A stretch of DNA of 64,000 nt from Hyphomicrobiales bacterium. GTDB taxonomy: Bacteria > Pseudomonadota > Alphaproteobacteria > Rhizobiales > Rhizobiaceae. The stretch covers positions 62,001-126,000 of the forward strand of contig NVSG01000001.1 in the NCBI GenBank assembly GCA_002401155.1, in the 5' to 3' direction. The notes beneath the pieces are model-generated. The model had not been told where the DNA came from, ran no database searches, and saw only the letters and a list, made by a program, of their open reading frames with translations. Every line of letters begins with the position of its first letter. Position 1 is the stretch's first letter. The position numbers were made by a program, and so were the translations under genes. Positions 1 to 8,258 of this stretch are shown in pieces.

Positions 1-774
1 GATCAGGTCCAAAACCTGGACCCCACGGAGAGAAATCAAAGCTTGACGGATTGCAGATTTCATCTCAACTGAAAGTCCACTTCGGGCAACCCATGGCTTA
101 GTGACATTCGCAAACGATGCAATCGCGCGAATTTTAGCGCCGCGTTTTTTCAAATCTTCATAGACCCATTTACTCACCGCCCCGGCGTCATAGTTGCCAT
201 CGGACACTGCCCAGCCGACGCGGTCATGACGCCGGAGATAAGAGTATCGTGACAAATTACGAACCGTAATGCCGCGACTGGCCAAAAAGTGTTGAGGAAA
301 ATATCGGCCGGTTGTCGAATATATGCTGCCAAATGCAAAACTCTTTCCAGTCAGATCATCCAGTGAAAATATACGGGAATCATTGTGAACGATAATGACG
401 CTTTGAAATGTCTTTTTCTTCTGATCTCCCTCCGCGGCCAGAATATCCAGATCAGGATTTTCATCCTTGGCAAGCACATAAGCTGCCTGCCCATAGCGAC
501 CAAAATCAACACGCCCCTGCGCCAAATCCTGAATTGCCCTGTGATAATTGCGAGCAACTTGCAGTCGTATTTTGACAGGTCTGCCTAATTGTTCCTGCAA
601 TCGGATTTCCAATGCATCCAGTATCGGGCGCATTTTCTGTACCGTCGTTGTCGGCTTTTCAAAGGCATAAGTCCCAAAAACCAGAGTTTCATTTGCCTGG
701 GCTGCCATCATGCCGATAGCTAAAATACAGATCGCCAGAAAGCCCTTCGCTGCTGTTTGAAAAATTTGTCCCAT
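1..774 (-). CDS. PhnD-like phosphate/phosphonate-type periplasmic substrate-binding protein (partial, runs off window start)
   Basis: Open minus-strand frame from ATG at 774 with signal peptide (MGQIFQTAAKGFLAICILAIGMMAAQA) and PhnD-like motifs (LVFGTYAFEKPTTTVQKMRPILDALE..., GRYGQAAYVLAK, DLTGKSFAFGSIYSTTGRYFPQ). Not in the ORF track because no stop lies in the window. Confidence 0.8.
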   Translation of the reverse strand, partial: MGQIFQTAAKGFLAICILAIGMMAAQANETLVFGTYAFEKPTTTVQKMRPILDALEIRLQEQLGRPVKIRLQVARNYHRAIQDLAQGRVDFGRYGQAAYVLAKDENPDLDILAAEGDQKKKTFQSVIIVHNDSRIFSLDDLTGKSFAFGSIYSTTGRYFPQHFLASRGITVRNLSRYSYLRRHDRVGWAVSDGNYDAGAVSKWVYEDLKKRGAKIRAIASFANVTKPWVARSGLSVEMKSAIRQALISLRGVQVLDLI

Positions 775-815
775 CTCTTTTCTCCATCATGGTCATTTGC
801 TTATGAAGAAGACAA

Positions 816-831
816 CGCAAAGAGCGTACCA
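816..831 (-). promoter_or_regulatory. Candidate sigma54 -24/-12 promoter for the PhnD-like gene
   Basis: Minus strand reads TGGTACGCTCTTTGCG (GG-N10-GC); consensus TGGCACG-N4-TTGCW; about 42 nt upstream of the ATG. Confidence 0.6.
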
Positions 832-1094
832 GCAGGGTTTTAATTAGGAATTGGGGCCTGCCGCCATTTTGGGAAAGCTTGAATTTTCAGAATGCAAATT
901 ACCCGTATCAGATTGTCAAACTGACATGCTGACTGACAAAATTGGAAAAGTTTTCGAGTATCCGGCAGCGACCCTATACGAGGTCCAACGCACAAAAGAA
1001 CATTCAAAGTTATCCTCACAAGCCCTGTTCACCTTATGCTTCAGCTAAATTTTACACACGATCGAACCATGAAGATTATCCCAGTTCCATCAAT

Positions 1095-1110
1095 TGGCAC
1101 ACCTGTTGCA
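1095..1110 (+). promoter_or_regulatory. Candidate sigma54 -24/-12 promoter for the small secreted protein
   Basis: TGGCACACCTGTTGCA, near-perfect GG-N10-GC, 38 nt upstream of ATG 1148. Confidence 0.75.
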
Positions 1111-1147
1111 ACGTGGATGGCAATCGCAACCGAACATGGAGGTAACT

Positions 1148-1492
1148 ATGAAACAACCTATCAAAACAACAATTACAGTCAGTGCCATATCTGTGGCCAT
1201 GTCGCTTGCAGTAACCGCCAGCACGTTTGCAGCCCCAACTTGCGGCACTCACGATCTCATCACCTCCACCCTCGCAGCACAATATAACGAAATTCCACTC
1301 CATCGTGGCCTGACACCGAAGGGCACAATGGTTGAAGTGTTCTCGTCAAAAGCAGGGACATTCACTGTGGTTATCACCATACCAACCGGCAGGAGTTGTC
1401 TTGTGACAGCGGGAACCCATTGGCAGGAAATTGATGCAGCGTCCCATGGTGGCGATAAAGACACTAGCGGGGTTTTAAATCGGGAATTTTAA
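1148..1492 (+). CDS. Small secreted hypothetical protein (about 114 aa)
   Basis: RBS GGAGG at 1138-1142; signal peptide MKQPIKTTITVSAISVAMSLAVTASTFAAPTCGTHD. The ORF-track start (1094) overlaps the sigma54 promoter and is less likely. Confidence 0.7.
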   Translation: MKQPIKTTITVSAISVAMSLAVTASTFAAPTCGTHDLITSTLAAQYNEIPLHRGLTPKGTMVEVFSSKAGTFTVVITIPTGRSCLVTAGTHWQEIDAASHGGDKDTSGVLNREF

Positions 1493-1521
1493 GAATACGA
1501 ATACCAGCTCCACTCCCGGCC

Positions 1522-1575
1522 GCCAGCGGTCTCCGAACTCCCTCCCCCTTAGTGTTCGGCTCAAAGACCGCTGGC
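1522..1575. other. Long interrupted hairpin with C-rich loop (terminator or small RNA candidate)
   Basis: GCCAGCGGTCT-CCGAAC ... GTTCGG-ctcaa-AGACCGCTGGC: 17 bp of perfect pairing with a 5-nt bulge and loop TCCCTCCCCCTTAGT. Confidence 0.6.
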
Positions 1576-1656
1576 AAGCTGCGTTTATTTACGTAGAGGA
1601 ACCGTGGATAAAAAGTGAGGGTTTACCGAATCGCCGTTAAATGTGATGTAGTGACC

Positions 1657-3057
1657 ATGTCACAAAAACAAAATGTACTTTTGGTTGAAGATGATCTTCC
1701 CATTGCGCGAGTCTATCAAGAGTATTTGAAGAAAGAACCCTATGCCCTCACCCACGTAGACTGCGGCAAGGATGCTCTCGACTTCATCGATCAAAATACC
1801 CCGGATGTGGTTATTCTTGATCTCAAGCTTCCCGACATGGATGGCATCGAAATTCTCAAACATATCCAGCAGCGCGCCATTGCGACGGCAGTTATTGTGA
1901 TCACCGCCCATGGCTCAGTAAATTCTGCGGTAGAAGCCATGCGCGAGGGCGCGGCAGATTTCATGATGAAGCCATTCAATGCCGACCGGCTGATTTTCAC
2001 CTTGCGCCACGCATTGGAACGCCAGCAACTCACCCAGATTGTTCGCACATTGAGCGTGGATAATACGCGGACGCAATATTGCAAGTTCATCGGCTCTTCT
2101 GCGGCCATGCAATCGATCTACCGCACAATAGATAATGCGGCCCCCAGCTCTGCGACCGTTTTTATCACAGGTGAATCGGGAACTGGCAAAGAACTATGCG
2201 CCGAAGCCATTCACCAGCAAAGCCCGCGAAGCAGCAAGCCATTCGTAACGCTGAATTGCGGTGCCATCCCCGAAAACCTGATGGAAAGCGAAATCTTCGG
2301 CCACGTCAAAGGTGCTTTTACCGGTGCCATCGCCAATCGTGATGGCCTGGCAAAACAGGCCAATGGCGGGACTCTATTTCTCGATGAAATTTGCGAAATG
2401 AGCCTTACGCTTCAGGTAAAATTATTGAGGTTCATTCAGACCAAAACCTTCCAGAAGGTGGGCGGATCCGAGCTTGAAAAGGTCGATGTGCGCTTTGTCT
2501 GTGCCACCAATAAAAACCCGTGGGGCGAAGTCAGCGCCGGAAACTTCCGTGAAGACCTTTATTACCGTCTCCATGTGATCCCTATCCACTTACCTCCACT
2601 GCGCGACCGCGGTGACGACGTGATGAAAATCTGCGAGCAATTTCTGGAAGCATTCAGCAAAGAAGAAGGAAAGAAATTCACCACCTTCAGTGACGATGCG
2701 CGTGAGACCATCACAAATTATGAATGGCCGGGAAATGTCAGGCAACTTCAAAATGCCATAAGAAACGCAGTCGTTCTTCACGATGGCGAAGAACTCACAG
2801 CAGCGATGTTGCCACCGCTTGCTGGCGGGGTAGACATCGCAGCCGCAGCAGTTTCAACCTCACCCGTATCACCAGCAGCGGCAGCAACCTCCAACATCGT
2901 GTTGAGGCCCATGTGGCAAGTCGAACGTGAAATGATTGAAGCGGCAATGGCCGAGTGCGGCGACAATGTACACAGAGCCGCCGCTTTACTGGAAATCAGC
3001 CCTTCGACAATCTACCGCCGTATTCGCGACGAGGAAAACGGCGAAGACCAATTGTAG
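1657..3057 (+). CDS. LuxO-like sigma54-dependent response regulator (REC-AAA+-Fis HTH)
   Basis: REC (VLLVEDD, VILDLKLPDMDG), Walker A GESGTGKE, GAFTGA sigma54-contact loop, LuxO-like VDVRFVCATNKNPWGEV, C-terminal HTH (RAAALLEISPSTIYRRI). Start at MSQKQN is preferred over 1615. Confidence 0.93.
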   Translation: MSQKQNVLLVEDDLPIARVYQEYLKKEPYALTHVDCGKDALDFIDQNTPDVVILDLKLPDMDGIEILKHIQQRAIATAVIVITAHGSVNSAVEAMREGAADFMMKPFNADRLIFTLRHALERQQLTQIVRTLSVDNTRTQYCKFIGSSAAMQSIYRTIDNAAPSSATVFITGESGTGKELCAEAIHQQSPRSSKPFVTLNCGAIPENLMESEIFGHVKGAFTGAIANRDGLAKQANGGTLFLDEICEMSLTLQVKLLRFIQTKTFQKVGGSELEKVDVRFVCATNKNPWGEVSAGNFREDLYYRLHVIPIHLPPLRDRGDDVMKICEQFLEAFSKEEGKKFTTFSDDARETITNYEWPGNVRQLQNAIRNAVVLHDGEELTAAMLPPLAGGVDIAAAAVSTSPVSPAAAATSNIVLRPMWQVEREMIEAAMAECGDNVHRAAALLEISPSTIYRRIRDEENGEDQL

Positions 3058-3167
3058 AAAATTGCTTGATCTCCGTGAACGAAATCACCCCGCCCCATAA
3101 GAATAGAGGGCGGCGATAATAGAGTTTCTGCCGATAGGTTCGATCAAAGTTACAAATGGCCATGAGA

Positions 3168-4646
3168 CTATTCCGCCGCCAATGGCGATGACGGGTTCTC
3201 GACGCGTCCATAAATATCTTCGAGCCGAACGATATCATCTTCACCGAGATAAGACCCAATTTGCACTTCGATCAGATGCACAGGCACCGTGCCGGGATTA
3301 TATATACGGTGCACAGCGCCTAGAGGGATATAGATCGATTGATCAGGCTTGAGCGTGAGCACATCATCGTCCAGCGTCACCTCGGCGACCCCGCGCACAA
3401 TCGTCCAGTGCTCGCTACGGTGATGGTGATATTGCAACGATAGTTTCTCACCGGGCGCCACCACAATATGTTTCACCTGATGTTGCAGGCCCCAATGCAC
3501 ACCTTCATAGCTACCCCATGGGCGATGAACCTTGCGATGTAATTTCGCAACTTCGCGGTCCTCATGCTTGAGCTGTTCCACGATTTTTGTCACATCCTGC
3601 GAACACTCTTTGCGCATCACCAGAAGCGCATCAGCGGTATCAACGATAACAAGATTGTCCAACCCAACCGTCGCGATCAACCTATCTGAGCCATGCACAT
3701 GCAGGCCCGAACAGTTCACCATTATGGAATCACCAACCGCTGAGTTACCCGCATCATCTGTATCCATGCATTCAGCAAGAGATTGCCACGAACCAATATC
3801 GCTCCAGCCAATATCAATAGTAACAACCACTGCATCTTTGGTTTTTTCCAACACGGCATGATCGATTGAGATATTTGGCACACGCGAAAAGGCTTCGGCT
3901 GCGGGCTTAATCATCCCATTTTTGTTGGAACCCGTTTCAAAAGCCTCAATGCAATGCTCCAAGATGTCCGGCGCATATTTTTGCAATTCATCTAAGATTT
4001 TCTTGGCTTCAAACATGAAGATGCCGCTATTCCAAAAATGCCCTCCCGCTTCAAGCATCTCACCAGCCTTATTCAGATCCGGTTTCTCGATGAACGCATC
4101 AACCTCGAAACACGTATAACCATAAGAAAGCTTCTTTCCCTGTCGAATATATCCATATCCAACCTCCGGACGATTGGCCGGCGTACCAAATGTTACCAGC
4201 GAACCATGCGCTGCCGCTCGCGCACCCATTTGGGCCGCAATATGAAGCGCCTTGGAATTTCGGATAAGATGATCGGACGGTAAAACCAACAACAAGCCTT
4301 CTGGATCATCGACGCCAATCGCCAAAGCGGCCAACGCAATGGCCGCAGCGGTATTGCGCCTTTGCGGCTCAAGAATTGCCAGCCCCGGTTTTATACCAAT
4401 ATCTGCAAGCTGCGCACTTCCCATGAACCAGAATTTTTCATCGGTAACAATCACAGGTGCCTGGAAAACATCGTTATCAGAAACCCGCTTTACCGTCTCC
4501 TGCAACATGGAATGCTCAGAAAGCAATGATTGAAACTGCTTGGGCCTACCTTCCCTTGATAAAGGCCAAAGCCTTGATCCTGATCCACCACACAAGATGA
4601 CAGGATAGATATTTCGGTTGGATACTGTTGATGGGGGCATTTTCAT
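3168..4646 (-). CDS. manC: Mannose-1-phosphate guanylyltransferase / mannose-6-phosphate isomerase
   Basis: YPVILCGGSGSRLWPLSREGRPKQF nucleotidyltransferase motif; C-terminal PMI cupin (VHRPWGSYEGVHWG, LSLQYHHHRSEHWTIV). Confidence 0.95.
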   Translation of the reverse strand: MKMPPSTVSNRNIYPVILCGGSGSRLWPLSREGRPKQFQSLLSEHSMLQETVKRVSDNDVFQAPVIVTDEKFWFMGSAQLADIGIKPGLAILEPQRRNTAAAIALAALAIGVDDPEGLLLVLPSDHLIRNSKALHIAAQMGARAAAHGSLVTFGTPANRPEVGYGYIRQGKKLSYGYTCFEVDAFIEKPDLNKAGEMLEAGGHFWNSGIFMFEAKKILDELQKYAPDILEHCIEAFETGSNKNGMIKPAAEAFSRVPNISIDHAVLEKTKDAVVVTIDIGWSDIGSWQSLAECMDTDDAGNSAVGDSIMVNCSGLHVHGSDRLIATVGLDNLVIVDTADALLVMRKECSQDVTKIVEQLKHEDREVAKLHRKVHRPWGSYEGVHWGLQHQVKHIVVAPGEKLSLQYHHHRSEHWTIVRGVAEVTLDDDVLTLKPDQSIYIPLGAVHRIYNPGTVPVHLIEVQIGSYLGEDDIVRLEDIYGRVENPSSPLAAE

Positions 4647-4696
4647 TTTCCTTCATATAACAGCACGGCTCATATGCCTGCTTCCTGCAAATGAAG

Positions 4697-4714
4697 GTTC
4701 AAAAAACGTGCCAA
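4697..4714 (-). promoter_or_regulatory. Candidate sigma54 promoter for manC
   Basis: Minus strand TTGGCACGTTTTTTGAAC; TGGCACG-N4-TTG matches consensus, with the -12 GC changed to GA; about 50 nt upstream of ATG. Confidence 0.5.
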
Positions 4715-4941
4715 CCATGGTTAGCAAATGGTTGACGGACGATTTTCGTGCGTGAGCATTGATAGTCAATGGTTTCAGGCAATTCTCACAATACGCCCAA
4801 GAAGCTGAATGAAGGCGTTTCCACTATAAAATTGTCAATTTGCCACGCAGATCGACATAAATCAGCCTTTCCCTCCCCCAACATAGAAATCACAGGACCC
4901 AAAGCTCCGTCTCACCAACAGTTTCAGGAGAAAAAGGCTTC

Positions 4942-4957
4942 TGGCACAATATCTGCA
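4942..4957 (+). promoter_or_regulatory. Candidate sigma54 promoter for the algD-like gene
   Basis: TGGCACAATATCTGCA, GG-N10-GC, 40 nt upstream of ATG 4998. Confidence 0.7.
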
Positions 4958-4997
4958 ATCTCCTAAGGCACAAACCAAAAAACCGTGGAGATGAATT

Positions 4998-6776
4998 ATG
5001 ACTACCATTATCAACTTGCCATATAGCCCAGATGAAAAAACAAATTTTGGGAAGAAGAAAACCCATGCTCGCATCTCCATATTTGGTCTTGGTTATGTCG
5101 GGCTGGTTTCTACAGCATGTTTTGCCGATTGCAATTATCATGTGATCGGTGTCGATCCAGACGTCAAAAAACGTTACATAATCCGCGAAGGAAAATCACC
5201 AATCGTAGAACCGGGACTGGAAAAGTTACTGGCACGCGGCACATCCAATGGCCACATAAGAGTGATTTCAGACGGTGAAAATGCAGTCCTTAATACAGAC
5301 ATTTCATTCGTATGCGTTGGCACACCAAGCAAGGCCGATGGCAGCTGTGATTTGAAATATTTGCGCACGGTTTCCCGCCAGATCGGCAAGGCGTTGGCTA
5401 AAAAAGATAAATACCATGTGGTGGTATTTAGAAGCACAATCCCTCCGGGCACCACCCGCAATGTATTGCTGCCAATTCTTGAAAAAGCCTCGGGCAAAAA
5501 AGCAGGTGACGATTTCGGCGTAAGTTTTCATCCAGAGTTCCTGCGTGAAAGCACGGCTATATCTGATTTTTTTGATCCGCCAAAAACCGTAGTTGGAGGC
5601 ATTGACGAACGCTCGCGCCAGCTTGTCGCCGCCTTCTATCATGGCATCGATAAAAACGTCATTGAGACAAGTCTCGAAGTTGCAGAAACCGTAAAGTACG
5701 TGGACAATACCTGGCACGCTTTGAAGGTTTCGTTCAGCAACGAAATTGGCAACATCTGTCAGGCACTAAAAGTCGACAGCCACAAAGTGATGGACATCTT
5801 TGTTCAGGATACAAAGCTGAACATCTCGGCCACTTACATGAAACCGGGTTTTGCATTTGGCGGTTCGTGCCTGCCGAAAGATGTGCGTGAAATCAACCAT
5901 CTTGCAAAGAGTTTGAATGTACCAACCCCGGTGTTGGGAAGCATCATTGAATCAAACTCAAATCAGATTACTCATGCCGCTGACATGATCAAAATCTCGA
6001 AACCTGACGTGGTAACGTTTCTCGGCATTACCTTTAAGGCGAATACCGATGATCTTCGCGAGAGCCCTGTCCTGCCGCTGATTTCACAACTGGTAGCTGA
6101 AGGCATCAAGATTAAGTTCTTTGATCCCAATCTCAATTTGGATAGTTCTGTTCGCCACCATCTCCAGCACTCAAAACATGAGAAAGACAGCATCGATCAA
6201 CTGATGGAATTTCTGCCTGCGATGGCCAGTGTATCGATTGAGGCTGCTTGCGAAAACAGTGATGTAATCGTGGTTTGCCACAATGACATGGCTTACCGCT
6301 CAGCAGTCATAGACCGGGAATCTCATCAAAAAGTTGTTGATCTGGTCCGCATCTTTGGTGGTCAGGACAATTGGCAAGAACTTGCTGCGGTCGGCATGGA
6401 CGATTATGTCCAAAAACCTGCAAGCCTTGAAACTCTGCAACTGAAAATCAACCAATGGACCCGTCCCACCGAAAAAGCCCTGAATATTCTTCTGGCGGAG
6501 GACGAAGTTGCCAACGCTGCTGTAATCAAAGCCAAACTAGCAAAACTGGGCCACAATGTGCGCATCGCAACGACTGGGTTTGAGGCATTGCGCGCCGCTC
6601 GTTACGAGCCTTTCGATTTGATTTTCATGGATATCAAAATGCCGGAGATGTGCGGCAAGGAAGCAACTTCGCGCATCAGAGCACTGGATTCGTCCCATGC
6701 CAGTGTACCAATTGTTGCCCTCACGGCACTCGCAGCACCTGAAGAAAGCGTCACCTATACCGGCATTTGCTGGTAG
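4998..6776 (+). CDS. algD: GDP-mannose/UDP-glucose 6-dehydrogenase (AlgD-like) with C-terminal receiver-domain pieces
   Basis: NAD-binding ISIFGLGYVGLVSTACFA, catalytic FGGSCLPKD, FKANTDDLRESP; after about residue 454 the ORF reads GMDDYVQKP (REC beta5) then NILLAEDEVAN...FMDIKMPEM...IVALTAL (REC beta1-beta4). Confidence 0.9.
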   Translation: MTTIINLPYSPDEKTNFGKKKTHARISIFGLGYVGLVSTACFADCNYHVIGVDPDVKKRYIIREGKSPIVEPGLEKLLARGTSNGHIRVISDGENAVLNTDISFVCVGTPSKADGSCDLKYLRTVSRQIGKALAKKDKYHVVVFRSTIPPGTTRNVLLPILEKASGKKAGDDFGVSFHPEFLRESTAISDFFDPPKTVVGGIDERSRQLVAAFYHGIDKNVIETSLEVAETVKYVDNTWHALKVSFSNEIGNICQALKVDSHKVMDIFVQDTKLNISATYMKPGFAFGGSCLPKDVREINHLAKSLNVPTPVLGSIIESNSNQITHAADMIKISKPDVVTFLGITFKANTDDLRESPVLPLISQLVAEGIKIKFFDPNLNLDSSVRHHLQHSKHEKDSIDQLMEFLPAMASVSIEAACENSDVIVVCHNDMAYRSAVIDRESHQKVVDLVRIFGGQDNWQELAAVGMDDYVQKPASLETLQLKINQWTRPTEKALNILLAEDEVANAAVIKAKLAKLGHNVRIATTGFEALRAARYEPFDLIFMDIKMPEMCGKEATSRIRALDSSHASVPIVALTALAAPEESVTYTGICW

Positions 6777-6824: not shown

Positions 6825-8258
6825 ATGCGATATTTCAACAAACCTCTACGCGCAGATAAATGCTGTAAACTGAGTTGCTTTACCGCCTATGATGTACGTG
6901 GAAAACTCGGCCCGGAACTCAATGAAGATATTGCCTATCGGATCGGGCGGGCATTTGCCCAGCATCTAAAAGCACGGTGCGTGGTTATCGGCGGCGATAA
7001 CCGCCTGACCAGTGAGAAGTTAAAAAAAGCAGTATCACACGGAATAATGGACGCTGGCGCAAATGTAATTGACTTGGGCATGACAGGGACAGAAGAGGTC
7101 TATTTCGCCTCATTCCATCTGGATGTAGATGGTGGCATAGAAATCACAGCAAGCCACAACCCCAAAAATTACAATGGCATGAAATTCGTTGGTCGTGGCG
7201 CAAAACCAATCAGTAGCGACAATGAACTGGCTTCAATTAAAGCATTGGCAGAAAGTCAAAATTTCACGTCGGCTCGCAAACGCGGCACCCTTACCCATAG
7301 GTCATTACTCAATGCTTATCGAGACCATTTGCTTGGCTTTATAACACCTAAGAAATTGTCTCCTCTTAGGCTGGTGGTCAACGCAGGTAACGGTGCAGCC
7401 GGCCATGTCATCGATACTATCGAAACACAGTTTTTGAGTAATGATATTCCCATCGAATTCATCAAAATTCACCACCGACCAGATGGCAAGTTTCCTCATG
7501 GTATTCCAAACCCACTATTGCCGGAAAACCGCGAAGTAACCTCCCAAGCCGTGAGAGAACATCACGCAGATATGGGTATTGCCTGGGACGGCGATTTTGA
7601 TCGTTGCTTCTTCTTTGATGGGCATGGTGATTTCATTGAGGGCTATTACATTGTTGGCCTATTGGCTGATGCGTTCTTACATCAACACCCCGGCGAAACC
7701 ATCATTCATGATCCGCGCCTGACATGGAATACCATCGACATCGTAAAAACAGCTGGCGGCGTACCTGTTTCATCCAAAACCGGCCACTCATTTATCAAGC
7801 AATGCATGCGCAAAGAAAACGCCATCTACGGCGGGGAAATGAGCGCCCACCACTATTTTCGCGATTTCGCCTATTGTGATAGCGGTATGATCCCATGGCT
7901 ATTGTTGATTGAACTGATCAGCAATACGGGAAACTCATTAGCAGAATTAGTCGAAGAGCGCATCGCTGCTTTCCCCTGTAGCGGCGAACTCAACTACAAG
8001 GTTGCTAACGTCAAAAAAGCAATCAAACGGGTACGCAACTATTACGCTACGGAGGAGCAATCCTGGTACACAGACGGTCAGGAAGTGCCCGATTTGGATG
8101 ACATCGATGGGCTGAGCATAACGTTCAGCGACTGGCGCTTAAACTTGCGCGCATCGAATACCGAGCCACTCTTGCGTTTGAATGTTGAGGCAAAAAACGA
8201 CCGCCAATTGGTTCGCAAACACGTGGCAGAAATTGAACATATAATCAGAGAACACTAA
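6825..8258 (+). CDS. manB: Phosphomannomutase / phosphoglucomutase
   Basis: [27 protein letters not shown]; catalytic serine loop [37 protein letters not shown]. Confidence 0.95.

Follow-up and report, generated by a model that had tools for sequence, protein, structure and literature searches.

A probable LuxO/SypG-type phosphorelay and sigma54 switch over alginate-type exopolysaccharide genes in a Hyphomicrobiales bacterium

The closest described counterpart of the locus considered here is the syp polysaccharide locus of Vibrio fischeri, which SypG, a relative of LuxO, controls through sigma54. There the regulator receives its signal from hybrid kinases by way of an HPt step (RscS/SypF to SypG to sigma54), several polysaccharide operons depend on sigma54, and the published enhancers, TTCTCANNNTGMDWN for SypG and TTGCAWWWTGCAA for LuxO, have a CA-N3-TG core (PMC10162802). 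Our locus lies in and beside a stretch of 64,000 nucleotides from a Hyphomicrobiales bacterium (assembly GCA_002401155.1, contig NVSG01000001.1, positions 62,001 to 126,000), hereafter the window, and by gene content and sequence it resembles the syp system in each of these respects. We consider it very probable that the locus is a LuxO/SypG-type phosphorelay and sigma54 switch over alginate-type exopolysaccharide, with six conserved promoters. It differs from syp in that the genes are those of an alginate-type synthase pathway (Alg44, Alg8, AlgD), the presumed input is a PhnD-like protein, the candidate enhancers are common to divergent promoters, and the bacterial lineage is another.

Other described systems share parts of this arrangement. 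Vibrio LuxO has the same domain order as the regulator found here and is its best profile and structure match, and the LuxO box TTGCA-N3-TGCAA recurs in some relatives of the locus; our regulator nevertheless falls below the curated cut-off for LuxO, and its predicted targets are polysaccharide enzymes. An earlier, sequence-only reading of the window had set Vibrio LuxO, which drives Qrr RNAs, against polysaccharide targets here; such targets are indeed predicted, but the contrast overlooked SypG (PMC10162802). The alginate clusters of Pseudomonas and Azotobacter contain AlgD, AlgA (ManC), AlgC, Alg8, Alg44 and AlgI/J/K-like proteins, as does our locus; in Pseudomonas, however, algD is driven by AlgU (PMC3750012), whereas here separate units each have a sigma54 promoter site. 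Furthermore, AlgD here bears a receiver domain, and AlgG, AlgE and AlgX were not identified alongside Alg44, AlgD and the Alg8-, AlgI-, AlgJ- and weakly AlgK-like proteins. Finally, the sigma54-dependent AioX-AioS-AioR system of arsenite sensing likewise has a PhnD-family periplasmic protein working with a kinase and a regulator. It differs from our locus, which has an HPt hybrid kinase, a LuxO-type regulator and polysaccharide targets, with no arsenite oxidase genes in the annotated stretch.

Four sigma54-type -24/-12 sites stand in the window. They were scored with an approximate weight matrix (maximum 20.9 bits), and chance estimates were taken from simulated 150-bp upstream regions on the correct strand only (n=40,000).

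816..832, minus strand: predicted sigma54 promoter of the phnD-kinase operon, CTGGTACGCTCTTTGCG; 13.9 bits, p=1.5e-3
1094..1110, plus strand: predicted sigma54 promoter of the gene for a small secreted protein (sec), TTGGCACACCTGTTGCA; 20.3 bits, p<2.5e-5 (0/40,000 simulations)
4698..4714, minus strand: predicted sigma54 promoter of manC, TTGGCACGTTTTTTGAA, with GA at -12; 15.3 bits, p=6e-4
4941..4957, plus strand: predicted sigma54 promoter of algD, CTGGCACAATATCTGCA; 17.0 bits, p=1.7e-4

From the end of the site to the start codon there are 41 nt for phnD, 37 nt for sec, 51 nt for manC and 40 nt for algD. The GG-N10-GC signature, in the context YTGGCACG-N4-TTGCW and at promoter distance, is found in three of these sites and in both sites outside the window, while manC has GA rather than GC at -12 in all four genomes compared (this one and the close relatives G001, G002 and G196). 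The sequence-only reading had placed the four motifs at these coordinates and strands, about 38-52 nt before start codons, with GG-N10-GC in three and GA in the manC site. All of this holds, and the motifs are further borne out by scoring against background (13.9-20.3 bits, p from <2.5e-5 to 1.5e-3 per upstream region) and by their conservation in orthologous loci.

Among the 41 other genes of the window, none reaches 12 bits upstream, and matrix scoring of upstream regions revealed no sigma54 site before the regulator gene, manB, lrp or a pdh/bkd-like operon. When position is ignored, sites of at least 15 bits number 4 in the window against 1.1 in shuffles, and those of at least 10 bits number 24 against 22. 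Raw counts say little by themselves, and the sigma54 claim rests on placement and conservation. As a positive control, glnB, a classical sigma54 target, is preceded in this genome by such a site at a distance of 62 nt. Further good sigma54-like sites occur elsewhere in the genome (contig C5 at about 80500 and 84471, contig C9 at 86008; L155, L156, L160), preceding small genes of no assigned function and a malate-synthase-like gene.

Two more sites precede genes outside the window.

L001 5454-12799 (contig C2:47553-54898), 7-14 kb outside the window: alginate-type cluster alg44-alg8-algJ-algK-algI

This cluster encodes Alg44 (PilZ-HlyD), an Alg8-like GT2 protein, an AlgJ-like DUF1574 protein, a weakly matching Sel1/AlgK-like protein and an AlgI-like MBOAT protein. 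The site before alg44, CGGCATACAAATTGCA, scores 12.1 bits and is conserved in G196 and G001; that before algJ, TGGCCCACTTCTTGCG, is recognisable in G196 and G002. Each is accompanied by a conserved CA-N3-TG block some 80-100 bp further upstream. The sequence-only reading had proposed that sigma54 jointly controls the PhnD sensor, the secreted protein and the supply of GDP-mannose and GDP-mannuronate. That proposal is supported by the conservation of the sites in four genomes and by sites before orthologous genes in five further families, but its regulon was incomplete, since alg44-alg8 and algJ-algK-algI also have sites; nor did it include the kinase, the enhancer-like blocks or the receiver domain of AlgD. 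That the regulon would be one for an alginate-type polysaccharide explains why manC and algD belong to it.

Conservation was followed at two distances. G001 and G002 belong to the same genus, and G196 is assigned to another family. All three keep the genes between the kinase and algD in the same order, and G001 and G196 do so as far as manB; the four window sites are in place in each, the -24/-12 elements standing in the alignments as conserved islands amid intergenic DNA that has in large part drifted. The distant set comprises six genomes of five other families (G175, G075, G060, G048, G139 and G068), in which upstream regions were scored, from estimated start codons, for all orthologues that turned up. 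Here sigma54 sites lie 8-54 nt before alg44, algJ, algD and manC, and in G175 and G075 also before phnD. At least 13 bits are reached by 21 of the 26, and the other five score 9.9-11.9 (manC in G060, 10.0, and G048, 10.1; algD in G060, 9.9, and G068, 11.7; phnD in G075, 11.9). Upstream of alg8, algK, algI, the regulator and the kinase, scores in the distant set are at most 9.0 bits. The genes, the promoter sites, their conserved positions and their restriction to these transcription units are observed features of the DNA, as are the conserved dyads considered below, and the predicted switch is conserved across several families.

The G196 copy of the locus (L043, contig C1) is as close to the window as the same-genus copies, including the upstream flank, and G139, the supposed genus-mate of G196, carries a very different version. 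Contig C1 may be misbinned or may reflect a recent transfer.

Each divergent promoter pair in the window has one conserved block of the form TTGTCA-N3-TG(A/C)CA between its members, a candidate enhancer, or upstream activating sequence.

913..931, strand not assigned: candidate enhancer TTGTCAAACTGACATGCTG, 11/12 dyad, common to the phnD and sec promoters
4832..4850, strand not assigned: candidate enhancer TTGTCAATTTGCCACGCAG, 10/12 dyad, common to the manC and algD promoters

The first block lies about 80 bp from the phnD -24 element and about 165 bp from that of sec, and is the most conserved block of this intergenic region (extended conserved block ATTGTCAAACTGACATGCTG). The second lies about 117 bp from the manC -24 element and about 94 bp from that of algD, with the extended conserved block AATTGTCAATTTGCC(ACGCAG) around it. 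A pattern built from both has exact matches in the genome only at these two places; with up to two mismatches it has 19 matches genome-wide, against 2 for the reversed control. The dyad of this genome is a TTGTCA-N3-TGACAA variant of the LuxO box, and its CA-N3-TG core is that of the published SypG and LuxO enhancers. In the distant set, each of the four promoters of G068 and G139 has a LuxO-box dyad TTGCA-N3-TGCAA that matches at 9-10 of 10 positions, and the phnD promoters of G175 and G075 have one that matches at 10 of 10.

Between the two divergent pairs lies the gene of the presumed activator.

1657..3057, plus strand: LuxO/SypG-like NtrC-family response regulator (Pfam REC, AAA+ with GAFTGA, Fis-type HTH)

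The combination of REC, a GAFTGA-bearing AAA+ domain and a Fis-type HTH is that of an NtrC-family sigma54 activator. Its best NCBIfam family is LuxO (NF041946), at 617.9 bits against a curated cut-off of 800, so that 'LuxO-like' is correct for this protein and 'LuxO' would be wrong; the sequence-only reading, which had pointed to the GAFTGA motif of a LuxO-like regulator, was right on both counts. The best solved relative is LuxO 5EP0, and gene content and sequence together indicate a regulator of LuxO/SypG type. A scan of genome contigs for named relatives returned mainly generic NtrC-family proteins, the informative hits being a Rhodospirillales metagenome-assembled genome and a Vibrio locus in which a 50%-identical regulator stands alongside an HPt protein and a polysaccharide cluster. 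The 40 bp preceding the regulator ATG (window 1615-1657) hardly vary among four genomes and can be read in frame starting at a GTG; they may be an N-terminal extension or a conserved leader or promoter of the regulator.

The presumed input is encoded at the edge of the window.

1..774, minus strand: PhnD-family periplasmic binding protein, 5' part (Pfam Phosphonate-bd, 4.5e-47)

The phnD gene extends 89 bp past the window start and overlaps by 4 bp (GTGA) the gene for a hybrid kinase of 921 aa with the domain order PAS-HisKA-HATPase-REC-HPt, which lies just outside the window (L002/L001); the two genes form an operon that begins with phnD. Past the kinase, the gene order continues with an Lrp-type regulator, the pdh/bkd-like operon and then alg44.

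The remaining window genes of the locus are the following.

1148..1492, plus strand: small secreted protein (sec), 114 aa, with a signal-peptide-like N-terminus judged by eye
3168..4646, minus strand: manC/algA, mannose-1-P guanylyltransferase / mannose-6-P isomerase (TIGR01479, 601 bits, over cut-off)
4998..6776, plus strand: algD, GDP-mannose 6-dehydrogenase, 592 aa (best solved relative 1MFZ, 6.8e-124)
6825..8258, plus strand: manB/algC-like phosphomannomutase (Pfam PGM_PMM I-IV)

The best upstream score of manB is 2.5 bits, and the gene, having no sigma54 site of its own, probably shares the algD transcript. The sec product has no Pfam or NCBIfam match, and its orthologues in three relatives are 58-76% identical. 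A hairpin, GCCAGCGGTCT ... AGACCGCTGGC, at about 1522-1575 between sec and the regulator gene, shows a paired change in its stem in G196 (GCGGTC/GACCGC to GCAGTC/GACTGC) and is probably the sec terminator. Elsewhere, RTX/DUF4114 proteins adjoin alg genes in two other families (L044 67-2274, L194 11743-13554); one of them, a secreted RTX protein adjoining the locus in G175, has a 19.9-bit sigma54 site.

From this arrangement, on evidence that is computational throughout, we infer a circuit. Ligand sensing would fall to the PhnD-like periplasmic protein, which would pass the signal to the hybrid kinase transcribed with it, and the kinase in turn would phosphorylate the LuxO/SypG-like regulator. 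The phosphorylated regulator would bind the enhancer dyads, about 60-180 bp upstream, and activate RpoN-RNA polymerase at six target units, namely alg44-alg8, algJ-algK-algI, manC, algD-manB, the secreted protein and the phnD-kinase operon, activation of the last amounting to positive feedback. Sensing, phosphotransfer, binding and activation are thus predicted steps, and the identities of ligand and polymer are likewise presumptive.

A second point of action may lie in AlgD itself.

6369..6743, plus strand: circularly permuted receiver (REC) domain in AlgD; the K-bearing piece leads, and beta1 to beta4, carrying D, D, T, follow

This insert of 125 aa stands ahead of the C-terminal tail TYTGICW. 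In natural order it covers only positions 1-80 of PF00072 (68.4 bits). Once the leading 36 residues are placed behind the rest, coverage rises to positions 1-110 of 111 (81.9 bits), and the reordered insert is 43% identical over 122 aa to the REC domain of the neighbouring kinase. Since the full match appears only after reordering, the insert is either a circular permutation or a piece taken out of two receivers in tandem. Full-length AlgD is retained in G001, G002 and G196. The insert was seen only in this genus and G196. Searches of 398 genomes of the order and 385 of the class picked up other AlgD-type proteins, none of which showed it; their matches end by residue 476. It is possible, though on balance doubtful, that the phosphorelay acts twice, on transcription via the LuxO-like regulator and directly on AlgD via the permuted receiver. 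GDP-mannose dehydrogenase, the committed enzyme of alginate precursor synthesis, would then be a phosphorylation-controlled response regulator.

Several observations weigh against the proposed switch. We did not find rpoN in this genome with two Pfam models, in an assembly that is 66% complete, nor in G175; G001, G002 and G196 do carry the gene, as do the other five distant genomes, and because both congeners have it, we attribute the gap in our own genome to incompleteness. In G070, a seventh genome outside the distant set, regulator, kinase, alg44, alg8 and algD are linked, yet -24/-12 scores reach 7 bits at most; and no alg genes lie near the regulators of G067, G142, G065 and G105. The manC site, with its GA, and the 12.1-bit alg44 site are imperfect, the weight matrix is approximate, and the algJ dyad of this genome was chosen by eye from the alignment; at several promoters of G175, G075, G060 and G048, dyads are no better than shuffles. 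Furthermore, as neither an epimerase gene nor one for an outer-membrane porin was identified, the polymer may be something other than alginate. Some of these points would suit the view that the -24/-12 motifs arose by chance or are relics, with transcription by sigma70 or ECF factors: rpoN was not found in the incomplete genome, manC departs at -12, G070 lacks sites, and algD of Pseudomonas is driven by AlgU (PMC3750012). Against it stand the gene-by-gene placement of the sites, their conservation in four close and six distant genomes and the presence of rpoN in nearly all of these, and we regard it as very improbable. Somewhat less remote, but still unlikely, is that the sites are served by another enhancer-binding protein, for example of NtrC type, and that the LuxO-like regulator has other targets. 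The genome does contain a second NtrC-family protein (C7:104789), and the regulator gene is without a sigma54 site of its own; yet the incomplete genome yielded just two such activators, several families keep the regulator together with these polysaccharide genes, and the dyads are of LuxO/SypG type, with LuxO boxes at these promoters in G068 and G139.

A separate alternative concerns the AlgD insert only, which may be a tolerated fragment of a tandem-receiver protein with no regulatory role. Its restriction to one genus and one other genome would fit this, as would the low confidence of AlphaFold models of the insert by itself and within the whole protein (mean pLDDT 63 for full AlgD, mostly <55 over the insert), although that low confidence is ascribed to the 4-8 sequences available. 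Conversely, the reading frame is intact, the receiver residues D, D, T and K do not vary among the four insert-bearing genomes, and the C-terminal stretch with the insert is conserved on a par with the enzyme proper (78-95% against 83-92% identity). We see the chances of this explanation as evenly poised.

Should the permuted receiver prove functional, AlgD would be an unusual case of a biosynthetic enzyme that is itself part of a two-component system; the open literature searched held nothing relevant on natural permuted receivers. Nor did it hold anything relevant on sigma54/LuxO control of alginate outside Pseudomonas and Azotobacter. The proposed switch would offer a specific circuit, open to experiment, for alginate-type slime in an order for which the literature searched has no description. 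Taken together, our findings suggest that the Vibrio LuxO/SypG logic of a phosphorelay, CA-N3-TG enhancers and sigma54 acting on polysaccharide is used far beyond Vibrio.

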